Origin: Hydrogenophaga sp.
GTDB lineage: Bacteria; Pseudomonadota; Gammaproteobacteria; Burkholderiales; Burkholderiaceae_C
Reading direction: 5' to 3'
Length of the DNA: 64,000 bases
Assembly (NCBI RefSeq): GCF_011390835.1
Contig: NZ_JAABRQ010000013.1
Span: forward strand, 1-64,000
The position numbers were made by a program, and so were the translations under genes. The notes beneath the pieces are model-generated. The model had not been told where the DNA came from. It saw nothing but the letters and a program-made list of their open reading frames with translations, and searched no databases. This document shows positions 22,991 through 30,655 of the stretch, piece after piece; the first letter of the stretch is position 1, and the number at the start of each line of letters is the position of its first letter.

Positions 22991-25645
22991 TCAGGCCAGA
23001 TCGCTCAGGAAGGTGCTGGCCTTGGTCTTGAGCGTGCCCGAGGCTTCTGCCAAGACTTCTTCCGCCAGCGACCGCGCGCCTTCCAAGTCGCCAATGGCCC
23101 GGAACTCTTCGGCCAGCGAGAGTTTGGTTTCCAGCGGGTTTTCTTCGGACAGGTCTTTGTCCACCGCTGCGGCGGGCTCTGGCGTGTCCAGATCGAGGTT
23201 GATGTTGCTCAGGTCGAAGGACATCAGCTCGTTGTTCTCCACAGCCGTTGCAGCGGCCGCGGACTCGGGCAATCCGAGCTCGACTTCAGCCAAGGGGGCT
23301 GGCTCCGAAGGTGCGTCGAGCGCAAAGTCTGGCAGGACCTCACTGTCGTCGAACATAGGCACGTCGGGCGCTGGCGCAGGTGCGGCTTCATCAGACTTGG
23401 CCGCCTGCAGGGGCGCCGGCTCAGAAGGGAAGTCCAGATCGAAGTCCATGGGTCCTGATTCGGGTGCCAGGGCCTCGGGTGCTTTGGCTTCGGTGAGTGC
23501 CTCGGTGTTCTTCAAGTCGTCCAGCGCCGACATCACGTCGTCGGCGGCCACTGCGGGCTCGTCCGTCGAGAAGTCAAGGTCCAGATCCAGAGCGCCTTCG
23601 CCGACCCGGCCCGTGGTCTCTGACATCGTGCTGCTGCCAAACGGCACTGTCATGGCGCCACCGGCGGCCGTCATGGCCACGACCTTTTGAGCGGGCGCAC
23701 CACCTGGCTGGTACAGCGGGTTGCTCGGATCCAGCTCCTTACCCAGCGCGCATGCTTGTTCCCATTCTGGGCCTTGGCCCTGTGTCAGGGCGTAGGCCTC
23801 GGTGGCCACAACCTCGAAGGCCTTGGCGTCGCGGCGCTTGGCGTAGATCTCCAGCAACTTGTTGTGGATGGCGACACGGGTGGGCGTGCTGCGCATGGCC
23901 TCTTTGAGGATTTCCTCGGCCTGCAGGTCGCGGCCATAGGCCAGGTAGACATCGGCTTCGGCGACCGGGTCCACGTCACCGGCTGCATCCAGCTGGCTGG
24001 GCGAATACACCATGGACGAACCCGAAGCGCTGGCTTCGGCGGTGTCGATGCGCTGGCCACCACTGGAGCCAAAAAACGAGTCAGGCTGCAGCCGGCTTTC
24101 GAGGAAGGAGCTGTCGACACCGGCGCCTTTCTTGCGCTGGCGCATCCGGTACAGGCCAAAGCCCGCCAGCAAGGCCAGCAGGCCACCCGCAGCGGGCAGC
24201 ACCAAGGGGTTTTCCTGCAATTGCTCAAGCAGCGATGGCTCTTGAAGCATGGGTTCGGGCACAGGCAGCGGTGCAGGTGCCGCGGCGGGAGCTGGCTCGG
24301 CCACGGCCGGCGCGGCTTCGGTGGGGGCGGTCGCCGTGGCGGTATCGGCCTCTGGCGTGGAAGCCGTTGTTTCGGTTGTGGTGGGCACCGCGCCCGGCAG
24401 GGTCACCGCACTGGTTGGTGTGGCACCCGGCGAGGCGCTGGCGGCGGCGGTGGCGGCTGCCGTGGTGGTACCGAGCTTGGCCAGTTCGTCGATGTTGCGA
24501 GAGAGTTCGGCGACCCGGGTCGATGCATCTTGCGCTTGCCGATCCTGGGCGATCTTCTCTTCGGCCGCGGTCGCTGCGGGGGTGTCGCCTTTGGAAAGCG
24601 TGAGCTTGTCCTGCGCGGGGGCCGCGGGCGCTTGGTCTTGCACTTCGGCCTGCACGCGACCGGCTGCCTCGCGGCTACCAGCGTCGACGGCGGCTGCAGG
24701 AACACGGTTGGCCAGGCTGCGGCGGAATTCGTTGAAATCTCGGCTCTGGGCCGCGATGATCTGCCGGGCCTCACCGGCGGAGGTGCTGCCTGCATCGGCG
24801 GCGCCAGGGAGGTCGATGATGGACCCGGCCTTGACGCGGTTCACGTTGCCGTCGATGAAGGCGTCCGGGTTGGCGCGCAGCATGGCGACCAACATCTGGT
24901 CCAGCGACACGTTTGCCGGACGGTTGGCGTTGGCAATGCGCCCGGCAGTGTCGCCAGCGCGCACGCGGACTTGGCCGCCGGCGGCTTGGGGTGCTGCAGC
25001 GGGCTGAGCTGCGGCTGGCGCACGAACTGGCGCTTGGGCAGGCGCCCTTGCCGCTGGTGCCACCACGGGCGGAAGGGGCTGGGCAGCGACGGGCGCCGGC
25101 GCTGGGGCTGGCGTGGGCCTGGCGGGCGCAGCAGCGGCGGGAACCGGAGCCACGGGTGTCGCAGCGCGTATCTTGGGCGGATCGATCAGCAGCGTGTAGT
25201 CGCGCAGGATGCGACCAGAGGCCCAGTTGGCCTCGACGATGAGGTCGACAAAGGGCTCGTTGATTGGGCGCGGGCTGGTCAGGCGCAGAAACGCACGGCC
25301 ATCCGGGCGGCGCTGCAGACTGATCTGAGCACTGCCCAACGCTGGGTTGAATTCCATGCCGGCGGCGCGAAACGCTTCGGGCGAGGCCAGACCCACGCGC
25401 AGGCTCGACGCCTCCTCCGCGCTGATGTCGGGCACGTCGATTTCGGCCCTCAGCGGCTCACCCAGGGCCGACTGCACCGCGATGCGACCCAGCGCCAGCG
25501 CGAGTGCGTCAGAGGTGTGCGCGAGCCCGGTGCAAAGCACCACCGCAGCGGCAACTGCGTGTAACCGGCTCAGACCGACTGAAGTGGGCTTTTTGAGGGA
25601 CGACGAGGCCGTTTTGGATGGAATATTGCGGGTGGTGGATGGCAC
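22991..25645 (-). CDS. fimV: FimV-like peptidoglycan-binding polarity protein
   Basis: Inner-membrane polar hub protein linked to type IV pili and cell polarity in relatives. It is 884 residues. After an export segment (about 25-50) the conserved FimV N-domain begins with LGRIAVQSALGEPLRAEIDV; a LysM-like region follows (VRVRAGDTAGRIA, about 220-280), then a long Ala/Pro/Thr-rich linker. A transmembrane segment (LPAAGGLLALLAGFGLYRM) is near residue 500. The acidic cytoplasmic half has TPR-like helices and ends with the FimV C-terminal motif (KLSLAEEFRAIGDLEGARSL). The start is GTG with GAGG six bases upstream. Confidence 0.93.
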   Translation of the reverse strand: MPSTTRNIPSKTASSSLKKPTSVGLSRLHAVAAAVVLCTGLAHTSDALALALGRIAVQSALGEPLRAEIDVPDISAEEASSLRVGLASPEAFRAAGMEFNPALGSAQISLQRRPDGRAFLRLTSPRPINEPFVDLIVEANWASGRILRDYTLLIDPPKIRAATPVAPVPAAAAPARPTPAPAPAPVAAQPLPPVVAPAARAPAQAPVRAPAAAQPAAAPQAAGGQVRVRAGDTAGRIANANRPANVSLDQMLVAMLRANPDAFIDGNVNRVKAGSIIDLPGAADAGSTSAGEARQIIAAQSRDFNEFRRSLANRVPAAAVDAGSREAAGRVQAEVQDQAPAAPAQDKLTLSKGDTPAATAAEEKIAQDRQAQDASTRVAELSRNIDELAKLGTTTAAATAAASASPGATPTSAVTLPGAVPTTTETTASTPEADTATATAPTEAAPAVAEPAPAAAPAPLPVPEPMLQEPSLLEQLQENPLVLPAAGGLLALLAGFGLYRMRQRKKGAGVDSSFLESRLQPDSFFGSSGGQRIDTAEASASGSSMVYSPSQLDAAGDVDPVAEADVYLAYGRDLQAEEILKEAMRSTPTRVAIHNKLLEIYAKRRDAKAFEVVATEAYALTQGQGPEWEQACALGKELDPSNPLYQPGGAPAQKVVAMTAAGGAMTVPFGSSTMSETTGRVGEGALDLDLDFSTDEPAVAADDVMSALDDLKNTEALTEAKAPEALAPESGPMDFDLDFPSEPAPLQAAKSDEAAPAPAPDVPMFDDSEVLPDFALDAPSEPAPLAEVELGLPESAAAATAVENNELMSFDLSNINLDLDTPEPAAAVDKDLSEENPLETKLSLAEEFRAIGDLEGARSLAEEVLAEASGTLKTKASTFLSDLA

Positions 25646-25827
25646 TTGGACCTCGACGTAAAGAACCGAGAATTGACCTTAACATCAACGCATTAGGGTG
25701 ACAAGCTGAGAATCCGCTTGAGTTTCCAAGGAGCCCGTTGGTCGGGTTTGTGGTGCCTCTGCGTTGTGGAGTCACAACGCTGGCGCCGGGCTCGAAGGGA
25801 GCCAGGCGCGGTTTCCATTGCTGACAT

Positions 25828-26958
25828 TCAGGCCGATAGCAGGATGCGCAACATGCGGCGCAGCGGCTCGGCAGCTCCCCAGAGCAGCTGGTCACCGATG
25901 GTGAAGGCGCCCACGTACTCAGGGCCCATGGCCAGCTTGCGGATGCGCCCGACCGGGATGTTCATGGTGCCGGTCACGGCCACGGGGGTCAGGTCCCGGA
26001 TGGTGGCCTCGCGTGTGTTGGGCACCACCTTGGCCCAGGGATTGTCGGCCGCGATCATGGCTTCGATGTCGGCCACTGGCACCTCTTTCTTCAGCTTGAA
26101 GGTCAGCGCCTGGCTGTGGCAGCGCATGGCGCCCACGCGCACACAGAAACCGTCGACCGGAATGGGCGCCGAGCCGAAGCCTTCGCCCAGTCCTAGGATC
26201 TTGTTGGTTTCGGCCATGCCTTTCCACTCTTCCTTGGACACTCCGTTGCCCAGGTCCTTGTCGATCCACGGGATGAGCGAGCCGCCCAACGGCACGCCGA
26301 AGTTGGCGGTTTCCGCGTCCGAGAGCGCGCGCTGCTTGGCGATCACCTTGCGGTCGATTTCCAGGATGGCGCTCTTGGGGTCGTCCAGCAGCGCCTTGAC
26401 TTCGGCGTTGAGCGTGCCGTACTGGGTGAGCAGCTCGCGCATGTGCTGCGCGCCGCCGCCAGAAGCCGCCTGGTAGGTCTGGGTGCTCATCCACTCCACC
26501 AGCCCAGCCTTGTACAGCGCGCCCACGCCCATGAGCATGCAGCTCACCGTGCAGTTACCGCCCACCCAGTTCTTGCCGCCCTTGGCCAACGCGTCCTTGA
26601 TCACCGGCATGTTCACCGGGTCGAGGATGATGACGGCGTCTTTCTCCATGCGCAGCGTGGAGGCAGCGTCGATCCAGTGGCCTTTCCAGCCCGCGGCCCG
26701 TAACTTTGGGTACACCTCGGTCGTGTAGTCACCGCCCTGCGCAGTGATGACGATGTCGCAGCGCTTGAGCGCGTCGATGTTGTGTGCGTCTTGCAGCGTG
26801 GTTTCGTTTTTCGCCATGGCCGGGGCATTGCCGCCGGCGTTGGAGGTCGAAAAAAACAGGGGCTCGATCAGGTCGAAGTCCTGTTCCTCGACCATGCGAT
26901 CCATCAACACCGAGCCGACCATGCCACGCCAGCCGACCAGACCAACCAATTTGCTCAT
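25828..26958 (-). CDS. asd: Aspartate-semialdehyde dehydrogenase
   Basis: Reduces aspartyl phosphate to aspartate semialdehyde, the branch point to lysine/diaminopimelate, methionine and threonine. It is 376 residues; [18 protein letters not shown] is the NADP-binding start and Cys136 in [12 protein letters not shown] is the nucleophile. It belongs to the Gram-negative (E. coli-like) Asd type. A 298-bp gap separates it from leuB and holds a leuB terminator, a promoter and a Thr/Ile-rich leader ORF, so asd probably has its own regulated transcript. Confidence 0.97.
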
Positions 26959-27049
26959 TTTTTGCCCTCTTCAGTGAATCAACAGGTCCAGACCAGACCG
27001 GCTTACCCGGCTCGTCTGGCCGGGAGGGCGCACGACGAACCAGGCTGGA

Positions 27050-27151
27050 TCAGCCCGTGATGGTCGTGGTTTTGGTGTTGATTGCGCGCGCAACCGCTGC
27101 TGCCCTGTCGGCACAAGCGGTGTTCAAGGTGAACGGGTAGGCGGCAATCAT
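27050..27151 (-). CDS. Putative threonine/isoleucine-rich leader peptide of asd
   Basis: A 33-codon ORF beginning with ATG at 27151 and ending with TGA at 27050. Its last ten residues are INTKTTTITG: four Thr and two Ile codons among the final nine, much like the thr-operon leader peptide of E. coli (which contains TTITTTITITTG). It lies 92 bp upstream of asd, whose pathway makes threonine. A hairpin (GGCTG/CAGCC) covers its stop codon, and further complementary segments follow (CCCGGC/GCCGGG; CCAGAC/GTCTGG) that could form alternative structures, though without a U-run. The role as attenuation leader is inference. Confidence 0.5.
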   Translation of the reverse strand: MIAAYPFTLNTACADRAAAVARAINTKTTTITG

Positions 27152-27158
27152 GGCTGGG

Positions 27159-27164
27159 ATTGTA
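27159..27164 (-). promoter_or_regulatory. asd: Putative -10 element of the asd leader transcript
   Basis: TACAAT on the minus strand. Its end lies 7 bp before the leader ATG, so transcription would begin at or next to the start codon and the leader would be translated from an almost leaderless RNA. No good -35 is seen. Confidence 0.45.
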
Positions 27165-27210
27165 GCGGAGCAGGGCTTGTCGCCGGCTGACAACGTCGGG
27201 CTGTTGGGCC

Positions 27211-27242
27211 GAAAAACACAAAGGCAGCCGGAGCTGCCCTTG
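27211..27242 (-). terminator. Rho-independent terminator after leuB
   Basis: On the minus strand CAAGGGCAGC pairs with GCTGCCTTTG (nine of ten pairs) around a 4-nt loop, followed shortly by five T. It lies 22 bp after the leuB stop and separates the leu operon from asd. Confidence 0.75.
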
Positions 27243-27263
27243 TGGTTGACCTGAGCCAAAGCT

Positions 27264-28334
27264 TCAGGCCAGCGCCTGCACCACCGCATCTCCCATCTGC
27301 ACGGTGCTCACCTGCGTGCTGCCTTCGCTCCAGATGTCAGGCGTGCGCAGGCCCTGGGCCAGCACGGATTGCACGGCGGCTTCGACGCGCTGCGCAGCCG
27401 CTTCCTGGTTCAGGCTGAAGCGCAACATCATCGCCGCGCTCAGGATAGTCGCCAGCGGATTGGCGACCCCCTTGCCCGCGATATCCGGCGCGCTGCCATG
27501 GCTGGGTTCGTACAGGCCCTGGTTTTTCGCGTTCAGCGATGCCGAGGGAAGCATGCCGATGGAGCCGGTCAGCATCGATGCCTCGTCGGACAGGATGTCG
27601 CCAAACATGTTGCCAGTGACCACCACGTCAAAAGCCTTGGGCTTCTTGACCAGCTGCATGGCCGCGTTGTCGACATACATGTGCTCCAGCTCCACGTCGG
27701 GATACTGGGCGTGCACCTCGGTGACCACGTCTCTCCAGAACTGGAAGGTCTCGAGCACGTTGGCCTTATCGACGCTGGTCACCTTCTTGTTGCGCTTGCG
27801 CGCCGCCTGGAAGGCCACGTGGGCAATGCGTTCGATCTCGGGCCTGGAGTAGCGCATGGTGTCAAAGGCTTCCTCCGCACCGGGAAAGTGACCATCGACT
27901 GCGGTGCGACGCCCACGCGGCTGGCCAAAGTAGATGTCGCCGGTGAGCTCGCGGATGATGAGGATGTCCAGGCCCGAGATGAGCTCGGGCTTGAGGCTGG
28001 ATGCGCCCACCAGCTGCTCGTAGCAAATGGCGGGGCGAAAGTTGGCGAACAGGCCGAGGTGCTTGCGCAAGCCCAGGATGGCCTGCTCAGGGCGCAGCGG
28101 GCGGTCGAGCTTGTCGTACTTCCAGTCGCCGACCGCACCGAACAGGATGGCGTCGGCCGATTGCGCCAGCTTGAGCGTGGACTCGGGCAGCGGGTGACCG
28201 TGGGCCTCATACGCAGCGCCGCCGACCAGGGCCGATTCCATTTCAAACGGAAGACCCAGCACGTCCAGCACCTTGACGGCTTCGGCCACGATTTCGGTGC
28301 CGATGCCGTCACCGGGGAGAACTGCGATTTTCAT
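27264..28334 (-). CDS. leuB: 3-isopropylmalate dehydrogenase
   Basis: Oxidative decarboxylation step of leucine synthesis. It is 356 residues starting [12 protein letters not shown]; family motifs are [34 protein letters not shown] and [18 protein letters not shown], followed by [16 protein letters not shown] near the C-terminus. An upstream in-frame ATG at 28397 would add 21 unrelated residues and reach into the repeat, so 28334 is preferred. It is the last gene of leuC-entericidin-leuD-leuB. Confidence 0.97.
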
Positions 28335-28364
28335 TGGGATGGATGAGAGAAAAAGTGTCTGTTC

Positions 28365-28443
28365 CAGGCTGCCGTGGAACCGGCTTTGCCGGGCCACTGG
28401 TAACGCCCCCCTGAGGGGGGGAGGCCGCAGGCGGCGCGGGGGT
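28365..28443. repeat. Intergenic repeat, type 1 (minus orientation)
   Basis: Between leuD and leuB. It holds the sequence CCGTGGAACCGGCTTTGCCG, the reverse complement (one mismatch) of the block shared by 38057-38140 and 51868-51950, followed by the palindromic C-run/G-run CCCCCCTGAGGGGGG and GGCCGCAGGCGGCGCGGGGG. It lies inside an operon and is presumably transcribed. Confidence 0.7.
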
Positions 28444-28445
28444 TG

Positions 28446-29090
28446 TTACATCGTTTGCGCCAGCCAGGGCTTGGTCGCCAGCCGCTCGGACTCAAAGGCG
28501 GCAATTTTGTCCTTATGGCGCAGCGTGAGACCGATGTCGTCCAGACCGTTGAGCAGACAGTATTTGCGAAACGCCTGCGTTTCGAACGGCAGCTCATCGC
28601 CCTGCGGCTTGATCACCACCTGGCGCTCCAGATCGATTGTCAGCTCGAAGCCTGGGAACGCCAGCACGTCGTTGAACAACTGGTCCACCTGTGCCTCGGG
28701 CAGCACGATGGGAAGGATGCCGTTCTTGAAACAGTTGTTGTAGAAGATGTCTGCGTAACTGGGCGCGATCAGGGCACGGAAACCGTACTGTTCAATCGCC
28801 CAAGGCGCATGTTCGCGGCTGGAGCCGCAACCGAAGTTCTTTCGCGCCAGCAGGACAGAGGCGCCCGCGTAGCGCGGCTGGTTGAGCACGAAATCGGGGT
28901 TGGGCTTGCGCGTCGCCGGATCCTGGCCTGGCTCACCCTTGTCGAGGTAGCGCCACTCATCAAACAGGTTGGGCCCGAAGCCAGTCTTGCGGATCGACTT
29001 CAGGAACTGCTTGGGAATGATGGCGTCCGTGTCGACGTTTTCCCGGTCGATGGGCGCCACCAACCCCTTGTGCAAGGTGAACGGCGTCAT
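28446..29090 (-). CDS. leuD: 3-isopropylmalate dehydratase small subunit
   Basis: Small subunit of isopropylmalate isomerase, partner of LeuC. The 214-residue protein has [33 protein letters not shown] and [18 protein letters not shown]. Its ATG shares one base with the stop of the entericidin gene (TAATG), so the two are probably translationally coupled. leuB follows after the repeat. Confidence 0.97.
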
Positions 29091-29221
29091 TATTTCTTCT
29101 TGGCCGCGTCTTCGAGCACCTGGCCGCCCTTCTGGATGTCCTGGCCCACGCCCTGGACGGTGTTGCAGGCGCTCAGAGCCAGCACGAAGGTGGCGGCGAG
29201 GATGGCAGCGATGGATTTCAT
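29090..29221 (-). CDS. Entericidin A/B family lipoprotein
   Basis: A 43-residue lipoprotein: signal sequence [19 protein letters not shown] with the lipobox LSAC, so the mature protein would begin at Cys19 and be about 25 residues, containing [13 protein letters not shown] and a Lys-rich end. These features match entericidins, small envelope lipoproteins of uncertain physiological role. A good AGGAAGAC site lies upstream. It sits between leuC and leuD and overlaps leuD by one base. Confidence 0.88.
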
Positions 29222-29233
29222 AGCGTCTTCCTT

Positions 29234-30655
29234 TCAGACAAATTGACGGACGTCGACGAAGTGACCATGGATGGCCGCAGCGGCCGCCATAGCGGGGGAA
29301 ACCAAGTGGGTGCGGCCGCCAGCACCCTGGCGACCTTCGAAGTTGCGGTTGCTGGTTGAGGCGCAGCGTTCGCCGGGCTCCAGCCGGTCGGCGTTCATGG
29401 CCAGGCACATGGAGCAGCCCGGCTCGCGCCACTCGAATCCGGCGGCCTTGAAGATCTCGTGAAGGCCTTCGCGCTCGGCCTGCGCTTTCACCAGGCCCGA
29501 GCCAGGCACGACCATAGCGAGCTTGACATTCTTGGCTACTTTTTGCCCCAGCTTTTTCACCAGGGCCGCCGCTTCGCGCATGTCTTCGATGCGGCTGTTG
29601 GTGCAGGAACCGATGAACACCTTGTCGACAAAAATATCGTTGAGCGGCTTGCCAGGCTGCAGTGCCATGTAGGTGAGCGCCCTCTCGATCGCGCCGCGCT
29701 TGTTCGGGTCTTTTTCTTTCTCGGGATCGGGCACGCTGCCGTCTACGCCGAGCACCATCTCGGGTGAGGTGCCCCAGGTGACCTGCGGCACGATGCGGCT
29801 CGCATCGAGTTCGACCACGGAATCGAAGTGGGCATCGGCGTCGGAGCGCAGCGTTTTCCAGTAGGCCACCGCCTGATCCCACACCACGCCAGTGGGCGCC
29901 AGCGGGCGACCCTTGACGTAGTCGATGGTCTTGTCGTCCACCGCCACCAGGCCGGCGCGCGCACCAGCTTCGATGGCCATGTTGCACACCGTCATGCGGC
30001 CTTCGATGGAGAGCGCCCGAATGGCGCTGCCGCCGAACTCGATGGTGTAACCGGTGCCGCCAGCGGTGCCGATCTTGCCGATGATGGCGAGCACGATGTC
30101 CTTCGCGGTCACGCCTTTGCCCAACTGGCCTTCGACCTTGACCAGCATGTTCTTGGCCTTCTTGGCCAGCAGCGTTTGCGTGGCCATGACATGCTCGACC
30201 TCACTGGTGCCAATGCCGTGTGCCAGCGCACCGAAGGCGCCGTGGGTCGAAGTGTGGCTGTCACCACAGACCACAGTCATACCTGGCAGGGTAGCCCCGT
30301 TTTCCGGGCCGATCACGTGCACGATGCCCTGGCGTTTGGACATGAACGGAAAAAACGCGGCCGCACCGAACTCGGCGATGTTCTTGTCGAGCGTGACGAT
30401 CTGCTCTTTGCTGATCGGGTCGGTGATGCCATCGTAGCCGTGCTCCCAGCCGGTCGTGGGCGTGTTGTGGTCGGCGGTGGCAACGATGGAGCTCACCCGC
30501 CATACTTTGCGCCCAGCCTGGCGAAGGCCTTCGAAGGCCTGTGGGCTGGTGACTTCGTGCACCAGGTGCCGGTCGATGTAGAGCACCGAGGTGCCGTCGT
30601 CCTCGGTGTGAACAACGTGCTCGTCCCAGATCTTGTCGTAGAGGGTGCGTCCCAT
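29234..30655 (-). CDS. leuC: 3-isopropylmalate dehydratase large subunit
   Basis: Catalytic iron-sulfur subunit of isopropylmalate isomerase. The 473-residue protein has [20 protein letters not shown], the cluster Cys in [12 protein letters not shown], and the pair in GCSMCLAMN. It starts [15 protein letters not shown] and heads the leu cluster. The 146-bp gap to gltA contains the gltA terminator and a -10-like TAAAAT (minus strand, 30701-30706); no leucine-rich leader peptide was found. Confidence 0.97.

Follow-up and report, generated by a model that had tools for sequence, protein, structure and literature searches.

What sets the expression of asd in the Hydrogenophaga sp. locus presented here? 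The gene encodes aspartate-semialdehyde dehydrogenase, from whose product lysine, threonine and isoleucine are all synthesised. A sequence-only reading of the window (the whole 64,000-nt stretch of DNA analyzed) had noticed a Thr/Ile-rich leader ORF ahead of asd and proposed threonine/isoleucine-dependent attenuation. The observation itself is confirmed here and is broader than first reported. As a full explanation, a ribosome-mediated attenuator that would set asd expression by Lys/Thr/Ile demand appears likely. Its sensing part is held with high confidence, while a translational output is favored with reservation. The comparison behind it is that Lys, Thr and Ile (K/T/I) codons end the leader, that two downstream segments, A and B, can both pair with a third one, C, and that the 3' part of A can also pair with the Shine-Dalgarno (SD) region of asd.

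Locus Organization

The minus strand carries, in order, leuB, a terminator-like hairpin, TACAAT, the leader ORF and asd. Around them (22991-30655) the gene order is leuC-leuD-leuB-asd-fimV-like, as named from translations, with the Pfam check covering leuB and asd. The features are the following:

27264..28334, minus strand: leuB (PF00180, E-value 1.4e-137), stop at 27264; the end of LeuB is here without a K/T/I tail
27217..27244, minus strand: terminator-like hairpin 3' of leuB, 12 pairs (7 GC), then TTTTT
27159..27164, minus strand: -10-like TACAAT, 7 nt 5' of the leader ATG
27050..27151, minus strand: leader ORF MIAAYPFTLNTACADRAAAVARAINTKTTTITG, 33 codons, probably leaderless
27056..27082, minus strand: putative sensing codons I-N-T-K-T-T-T-I-T (then G)
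27043..27055, minus strand: stop-codon hairpin GGCUG/CAGCC, in the place of segments 1:2 of classic attenuators
27027..27046, minus strand: segment A, forming the 5' side of hairpin A:C, the proposed ON state
27024..27029, minus strand: anti-SD GCCCUC, which closes segment A on its 3' side and is the complement of GAGGGC in the asd SD region
27019..27024, minus strand: segment B (CCCGGC), which competes with A for pairing to C
27006..27021, minus strand: segment C (GGCCAGACGAGCCGGG), 3' arm in both A:C and B:C
26985..26999, minus strand: hairpin D, GGTCTGGTCTGGACC, loosely terminator-like in the terminator-pattern scan
26964..26969, minus strand: asd SD region GAGGGC
25828..26958, minus strand: asd (PF01118 and PF02774), single match in its own genome

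The 33-codon ORF ending in INTKTTTITG and the TACAAT box are both present as first read; the distance to the asd ATG at 26958 is 91 nt, one less than had been given. Two more traits without an obvious role were seen: a small GUUC-NNNNN-GAAC hairpin and a peptide start MFAARPFxLN, which recur near the 5' end in the window (27100-27140) and in the separate leaders of named relatives (codons 6-11).

Distribution of the Leader

We compared 241 asd upstream stretches: that of the window, 80 from named relatives (the best 80 of at least 596 Asd matches, among which the nearest relatives are mostly Hydrogenophaga), 60 sampled across various families of the order, 80 from the window's family (80 of the 111 then unread, out of 120 family genomes, those passed over being mostly the closest relatives) and 20 more from f31, inferred to be a Burkholderia-like family. 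Leaders were scanned for as stop codons preceded by Thr/Ile/Lys/Met-rich codons, scored as the best count in the last 12 codons. After removal of three rows from other families (L086, L131, L134; score 5-6) that were judged false, a leader is found in 163/241 stretches, as a separate ORF in 108 and as a LeuB tail in 55; one further stretch (L204) is scored as having no leader despite one lying 593 nt upstream. The window's family has a leader in 73/90 stretches (44 fused to LeuB, 29 separate) and the named relatives in 75/80 (64 separate, 11 fused). A comparable ORF, always separate, is present in 14/25 stretches of f31. Concerning other families, 1/46 stretches has a leader (family f13, ...SIKRTTTIITKTVMKG), and a second genome of that genus, fetched later, carries ...ITTIITKKTKTIILV. 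Scores of at least 6 were reached by 161/195 real stretches of the three main sets versus 0/195 letter shuffles, the top score of which was 5.

A covariance model of the last leader codons plus the A:C hairpin (R1) matched 100/120 family genomes, representing 119 genera, and in 98/120 the match lies at most 400 nt upstream of asd. One match in the 100 positive genomes is at a contig end, another lies 593 nt upstream of asd with a different reading frame (acetyltransferase-like by eye) in between, and four more, found away from asd, are weak. In 300 genomes of the order, searched with stricter filters, the 10 family members score strongly; 9 matches outside the family are weak, one of them, from f31, adjoining asd. 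The prediction that ORF, Thr codons and pairing segments would be kept in relatives is borne out and the proposal of attenuation is supported, with Lys to be added to it. The leader-end pattern occurs a single time in its own genome. At L245 (genome G382, contig C18), a reading frame that resembles an acetyltransferase by eye lies between asd and a KTTTIKG leader with its A:C-like hairpin, so this leader may now head another gene.

The LeuB-Fused Form

The leader is not always a separate ORF like the one first read in the window: the LeuB C-terminus takes its place in 44/73 leader-bearing family stretches, a share that should not be taken as a family-wide estimate because sampling passed over mostly the closest relatives. 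An example of such a tail is ...MGDAVVKAITTTKTIKS*, and named cases include Paucibacter oligotrophus CHU3, Ideonella sp. A 288 and Hydrogenophaga sp. IBVHS2. Whether its locus has a separate leader or none, tail-free LeuB mostly stops at ...AVVAAL or no more than five residues from it, nine being the maximum. The fused protein continues for about 10 residues past that point, and these are one third Thr, one fifth Lys and one sixth Ile, with 44 distinct sequences among the 55 tails. The proposed attenuation would suggest that K/T/I-rich LeuB C-termini are regulatory rather than structural. On an Asd tree of 81 rows, in which one row (L003) owes its leader-less label solely to a contig that starts 40 nt upstream of asd, the fused state needs about seven changes; since well-supported branches force only one of them and the bootstrap is not settled, repeated fusion is not claimed. 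In some fused loci (L149, L158, L162, L165, L166, L191), a further alternative helix can form between a ACAAACCC-like segment preceding C and a GGGTTTGT-like segment preceding the asd SD.

Codon Content of the Leader

In the last 12 codons, Lys and Thr are present in 73/73 family leaders and Ile in 71/73; the corresponding numbers are 75/75, 75/75 and 74/75 for the named relatives, and all three residues occur in 14/14 leaders of f31. The joint K/T/I richness is partly a product of selection, as the scan picked on Thr, Ile, Lys and Met together, but the presence of each residue was not selected for. The Thr/Ile signal initially described was incomplete, since Lys belongs to it as well. A short ORF rich in codons for the end products of the pathway, as would be expected of a ribosome-mediated attenuator, is thus present in these leader-bearing stretches and predicted to be translated. 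As regards codon choice, ATT is raised over ATC in leaders versus the end of LeuB in every set. Lys AAA accounts for 32/34 codons in f31 leaders versus 3/39 at the LeuB end, and for 45/100 versus 18/135 in fused family leaders; the separate leaders of named relatives show no such enrichment (65/124 versus 51/108 in LeuB).

Separate leaders of named relatives are exactly 33 codons long in 54/64 cases, and 64/68 leaders of exactly this length contain KTTTI and end in G. In the 59 distinct ones, the final seven codons are nearly invariant at their third positions; the codon table was limited to leaders with KTTTI, which makes those residues constant by choice but not their third positions. Codons 2-26 of the same leaders are under weak protein constraint (omega-like 0.76).

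Start of the Leader

A -10-like box lies 6-9 nt before the ATG in 101/108 separate leaders, a count that is favored by the choice of the best-box ATG where several were in frame. Hexamers with at least 5/6 matches precede 91/108 leaders, and all 1962 ATGs tested (leaders included) give 98. An SD-like motif is rare (3/108). Given this spacing and the rarity of an SD, separate leaders probably start on leaderless mRNA. As a two-hexamer scan yielded no promoter in the window, only the -10 box points to a transcript start at the leader.

Alternative RNA Pairings

Three pairings after the leader stop had been pointed out in the window. GGCTG/CAGCC, over the stop codon, is conserved, with 94.0% of cells paired in 70 sequences and 0/500 shuffles as high, its covariation score being reached by 32/500. 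CCCGGC/GCCGGG, which is B:C here, is conserved too (95.5% of cells, 0/500). CCAGAC/GTCTGG is not general, both segments occurring in that order in 5/73 leader-bearing family stretches and 25/75 named relatives, and was set aside. A:C forms a long hairpin and B:C a short one, and the C strand is common to both. In the alignment used (A1, 70 of 72 distinct rows; L068 and L073 left out), column 79 covaries with column 33 in A and with column 64 in B, each through C-G, U-G and U-A, which indicates that both alternative pairings are kept. The column counts for A:C are mixed: paired cells (3/500 shuffles as high) and covariation score (4/500) stand out, but pair changes on both sides (110/500) and pair types (487/500) do not, one reason being joint gains or losses of a base in A and C. 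RNAalifold retained only seven A:C pairs (-1.6 kcal/mol).

When partners were swapped among sequences of the family set, none of 5000 swaps was as strong as the real partners for A:C, B:C or anti-SD:SD, and three control pairings were not significant (1086, 2630 and 2403 of 5000), values which, like those of the shuffle tests, are inflated by kinship among sequences. Anti-SD:SD also passes within fused loci (2/5000) and fails within separate leaders alone (867/5000). Mutually exclusive pairings just after the sensing codons, of the kind a ribosome-mediated attenuator would require, are supported by these comparisons, with the mixed column counts for A:C as a caveat. Hairpin strength as such is not diagnostic, as 19/40 leader-less loci also reach -20 kcal/mol, and hairpin D is family-wide barely above shuffles (-3.1 versus -2.1 kcal/mol).

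CACGAC/GUCGUG, which would join the Thr codons to segment A, was also considered, as it looked convincing on inspection. It was matched by 230/5000 swaps in the family; it has been left out of the model because it fails within classes (4607/5000 separate, 1714/5000 fused) and shows little covariation.

The f31 stretches (L091, L092, L113, L117, L223-L236) have a different post-leader pairing near asd, CTTCCCCGC with GCGGGGAAG. A shared block, TCGTCGTG, suggests a common origin, but the output mechanism may differ.

Proposed Control of asd

In the proposed attenuator, scarcity of charged tRNA for Lys, Thr or Ile would stall the ribosome a few codons short of the stop and keep A accessible; A:C would then form, lock up the anti-SD and free the asd SD (ON). 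With amino acids plentiful, the ribosome would reach the stop codon and cover the 5' arm of A, so that B:C would form and the released anti-SD would pair with the SD (OFF). In the fused form, which accounts for roughly half of the family stretches examined, sensing would fall to the codons of the LeuB tail and would be done by each ribosome finishing LeuB. We put forward, with moderate confidence, a Lys/Thr/Ile sensor that comes in two forms (a free leaderless leader or a LeuB tail) and would switch asd translation through an anti-SD and competing hairpins.

Evidence on the output comes from the SD region. An AGG(G)GC-type asd SD is found in 52/73 leader-bearing versus 3/17 leader-less family stretches, in 69/75 versus 1/5 among the named relatives and in 0/45 leader-less stretches of other families; f31 is without it (0/14). 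In a base-by-base test of the 130/148 stretches (60/73 of the family) with both cores, one of three positions next to the anti-SD core follows the SD (21/5000) and the other two do not (3111 and 4304 of 5000). Folding was compared with and without masking of the first 11 nt after the stop, the stretches of suitable length being 71/73 for the family, 74/75 for the named relatives and 14/14 for f31. With masking, the SD was predicted to lose over 0.1 in accessibility in 36/74 named relatives and to gain in 7 (shuffles 8 and 5); the wider family gave 15/71 down and 10 up (shuffles 6 and 10), and f31 gave 4/14 and 3/14. In the window accessibility stayed at 0.46 in both cases, because SD and anti-SD are already paired with each other in its unmasked lowest-energy fold. 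Among six folds compared, masking moves L002 and L063 from A:C to anti-SD:SD (with B:C too in L063), and in the other four (the window, L147, L198 and L208) the SD is paired in the lowest-energy fold even unmasked. The output is the least certain step of the model, as the effect of masking is weak in the wider family and nil in the window.

The sequence-only reading had left translation and Rho as options. With the same sensing, the position of the ribosome could expose or hide a C-rich loading site for Rho; a C-rich loop is indeed present and intrinsic terminators are rare, but the way in which the SD region follows the anti-SD segment would be left unexplained. Translation is favored because the anti-SD shares bases with the switching strand and, in the family set as a whole though not among separate leaders by themselves, follows the asd SD. 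An output through Rho is regarded as unlikely. A transcriptional output of the kind seen in the E. coli thr operon, through an intrinsic terminator, has about the same standing. Some relatives do have hairpin D followed by a U-run, e.g., ACTGTTTTTTT, and terminator-like signals in the leader-asd gap are found in 3/73 family stretches and 8/75 named relatives versus 0 and 2 among shuffled sequences. One of the three family stretches is that of the window, which lacks a classical U-run terminator, as first noted, but whose hairpin at 26999-26985 just fits the loose terminator pattern, with a broken T-run. The test detects none in 70/73 family stretches and 14/14 of f31, and no U directly follows B:C. 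A translational switch is preferred over intrinsic termination on account of the 3/73, and the latter is likewise regarded as unlikely.

Other alternatives concern the sensing itself. Nascent-peptide arrest, known from SecM and ErmCL, would mean that KTTTIKG itself stalls the ribosome irrespective of codon demand. The KTTTI and terminal G of the 33-codon leaders would agree with it, but elsewhere composition is kept while order and length vary, as among the LeuB tails, and the constancy of KTTTI fits RNA pairing too and extends to third codon positions; arrest is accordingly judged improbable. Least probable of all is a purely RNA element (a protein- or sRNA-binding or processing hairpin) with an incidental ORF, which the weak constraint on codons 2-26 would allow but which does not account for K/T/I content preserved in separate ORFs and LeuB tails alike, or for the constant distance of the -10 box to the ATG.

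The attenuator proposed here would explain, for a large bacterial family, the control of the shared step in Lys, Thr and Ile synthesis. It would also show that one species can build the leader of an amino-acid attenuator into a full-length enzyme while its relative makes a free peptide. The most surprising part is the sensor as a fused enzyme tail: if true, a working biosynthetic enzyme doubles as a leader peptide and translation of a leucine gene is tied to aspartate-family control. A natural two-form system for the study of leaderless translation and ribosome-position switches would thereby be available.

Comparison with Known Systems

At gathering score, Rfam matched nothing in the window; at E ≤ 1, 26900-27300 yielded no convincing match and none to the Thr leader; 12 relatives likewise gave no Thr leader and only weak matches, e.g., Phe_leader with 25 bits against a cut-off of 55. 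An intrinsic terminator before the first structural gene would be expected of the Thr leader family; the signal counted above is confined to 3/73 family stretches, the window included. No description of the asd leader was found in the open-access literature searched, most subscription journals lying outside its coverage.

The thr operon attenuator of E. coli (thrL) has a leader with Thr and Ile codons, competing hairpins and an intrinsic terminator. The asd leader resembles it as a Thr/Ile-codon leader with competing hairpins ahead of an aspartate-pathway gene, and differs in the gene served, the added Lys codons, the rarity of a terminator, the probably leaderless start and the fusion to LeuB in many relatives; moreover, no K/T/I-rich leader was found at its own genome's hom locus. 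The ilvGMEDA attenuator of E. coli (ilvL) is multivalent, and the two have in common that one leader reads several amino acids, but ilvL responds to Ile, Val and Leu and acts through a transcription terminator. In E. coli rph-pyrE, a gene is controlled through translation of the final part of the enzyme gene ahead of it, as proposed for the fused form, although there UTP is sensed through polymerase pausing rather than amino acids through codons in an enzyme tail; a paper on rph-pyrE was not found in the open-access literature searched. Cis elements reported before asd are the asd RNA motif RF01732 of Lactobacillales and attenuator-like sequences in Streptococcus mutans (PMC2864571); these belong to another phylum, and no RF01732 match was obtained here. 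Finally, the trpL of Sinorhizobium meliloti is a 14-residue Trp leader whose ORF lies at the 5' end of the transcript (PMC7298713), a placement that is predicted for the separate asd leaders as well, while trpL differs from them in being Trp-specific and terminator-based.
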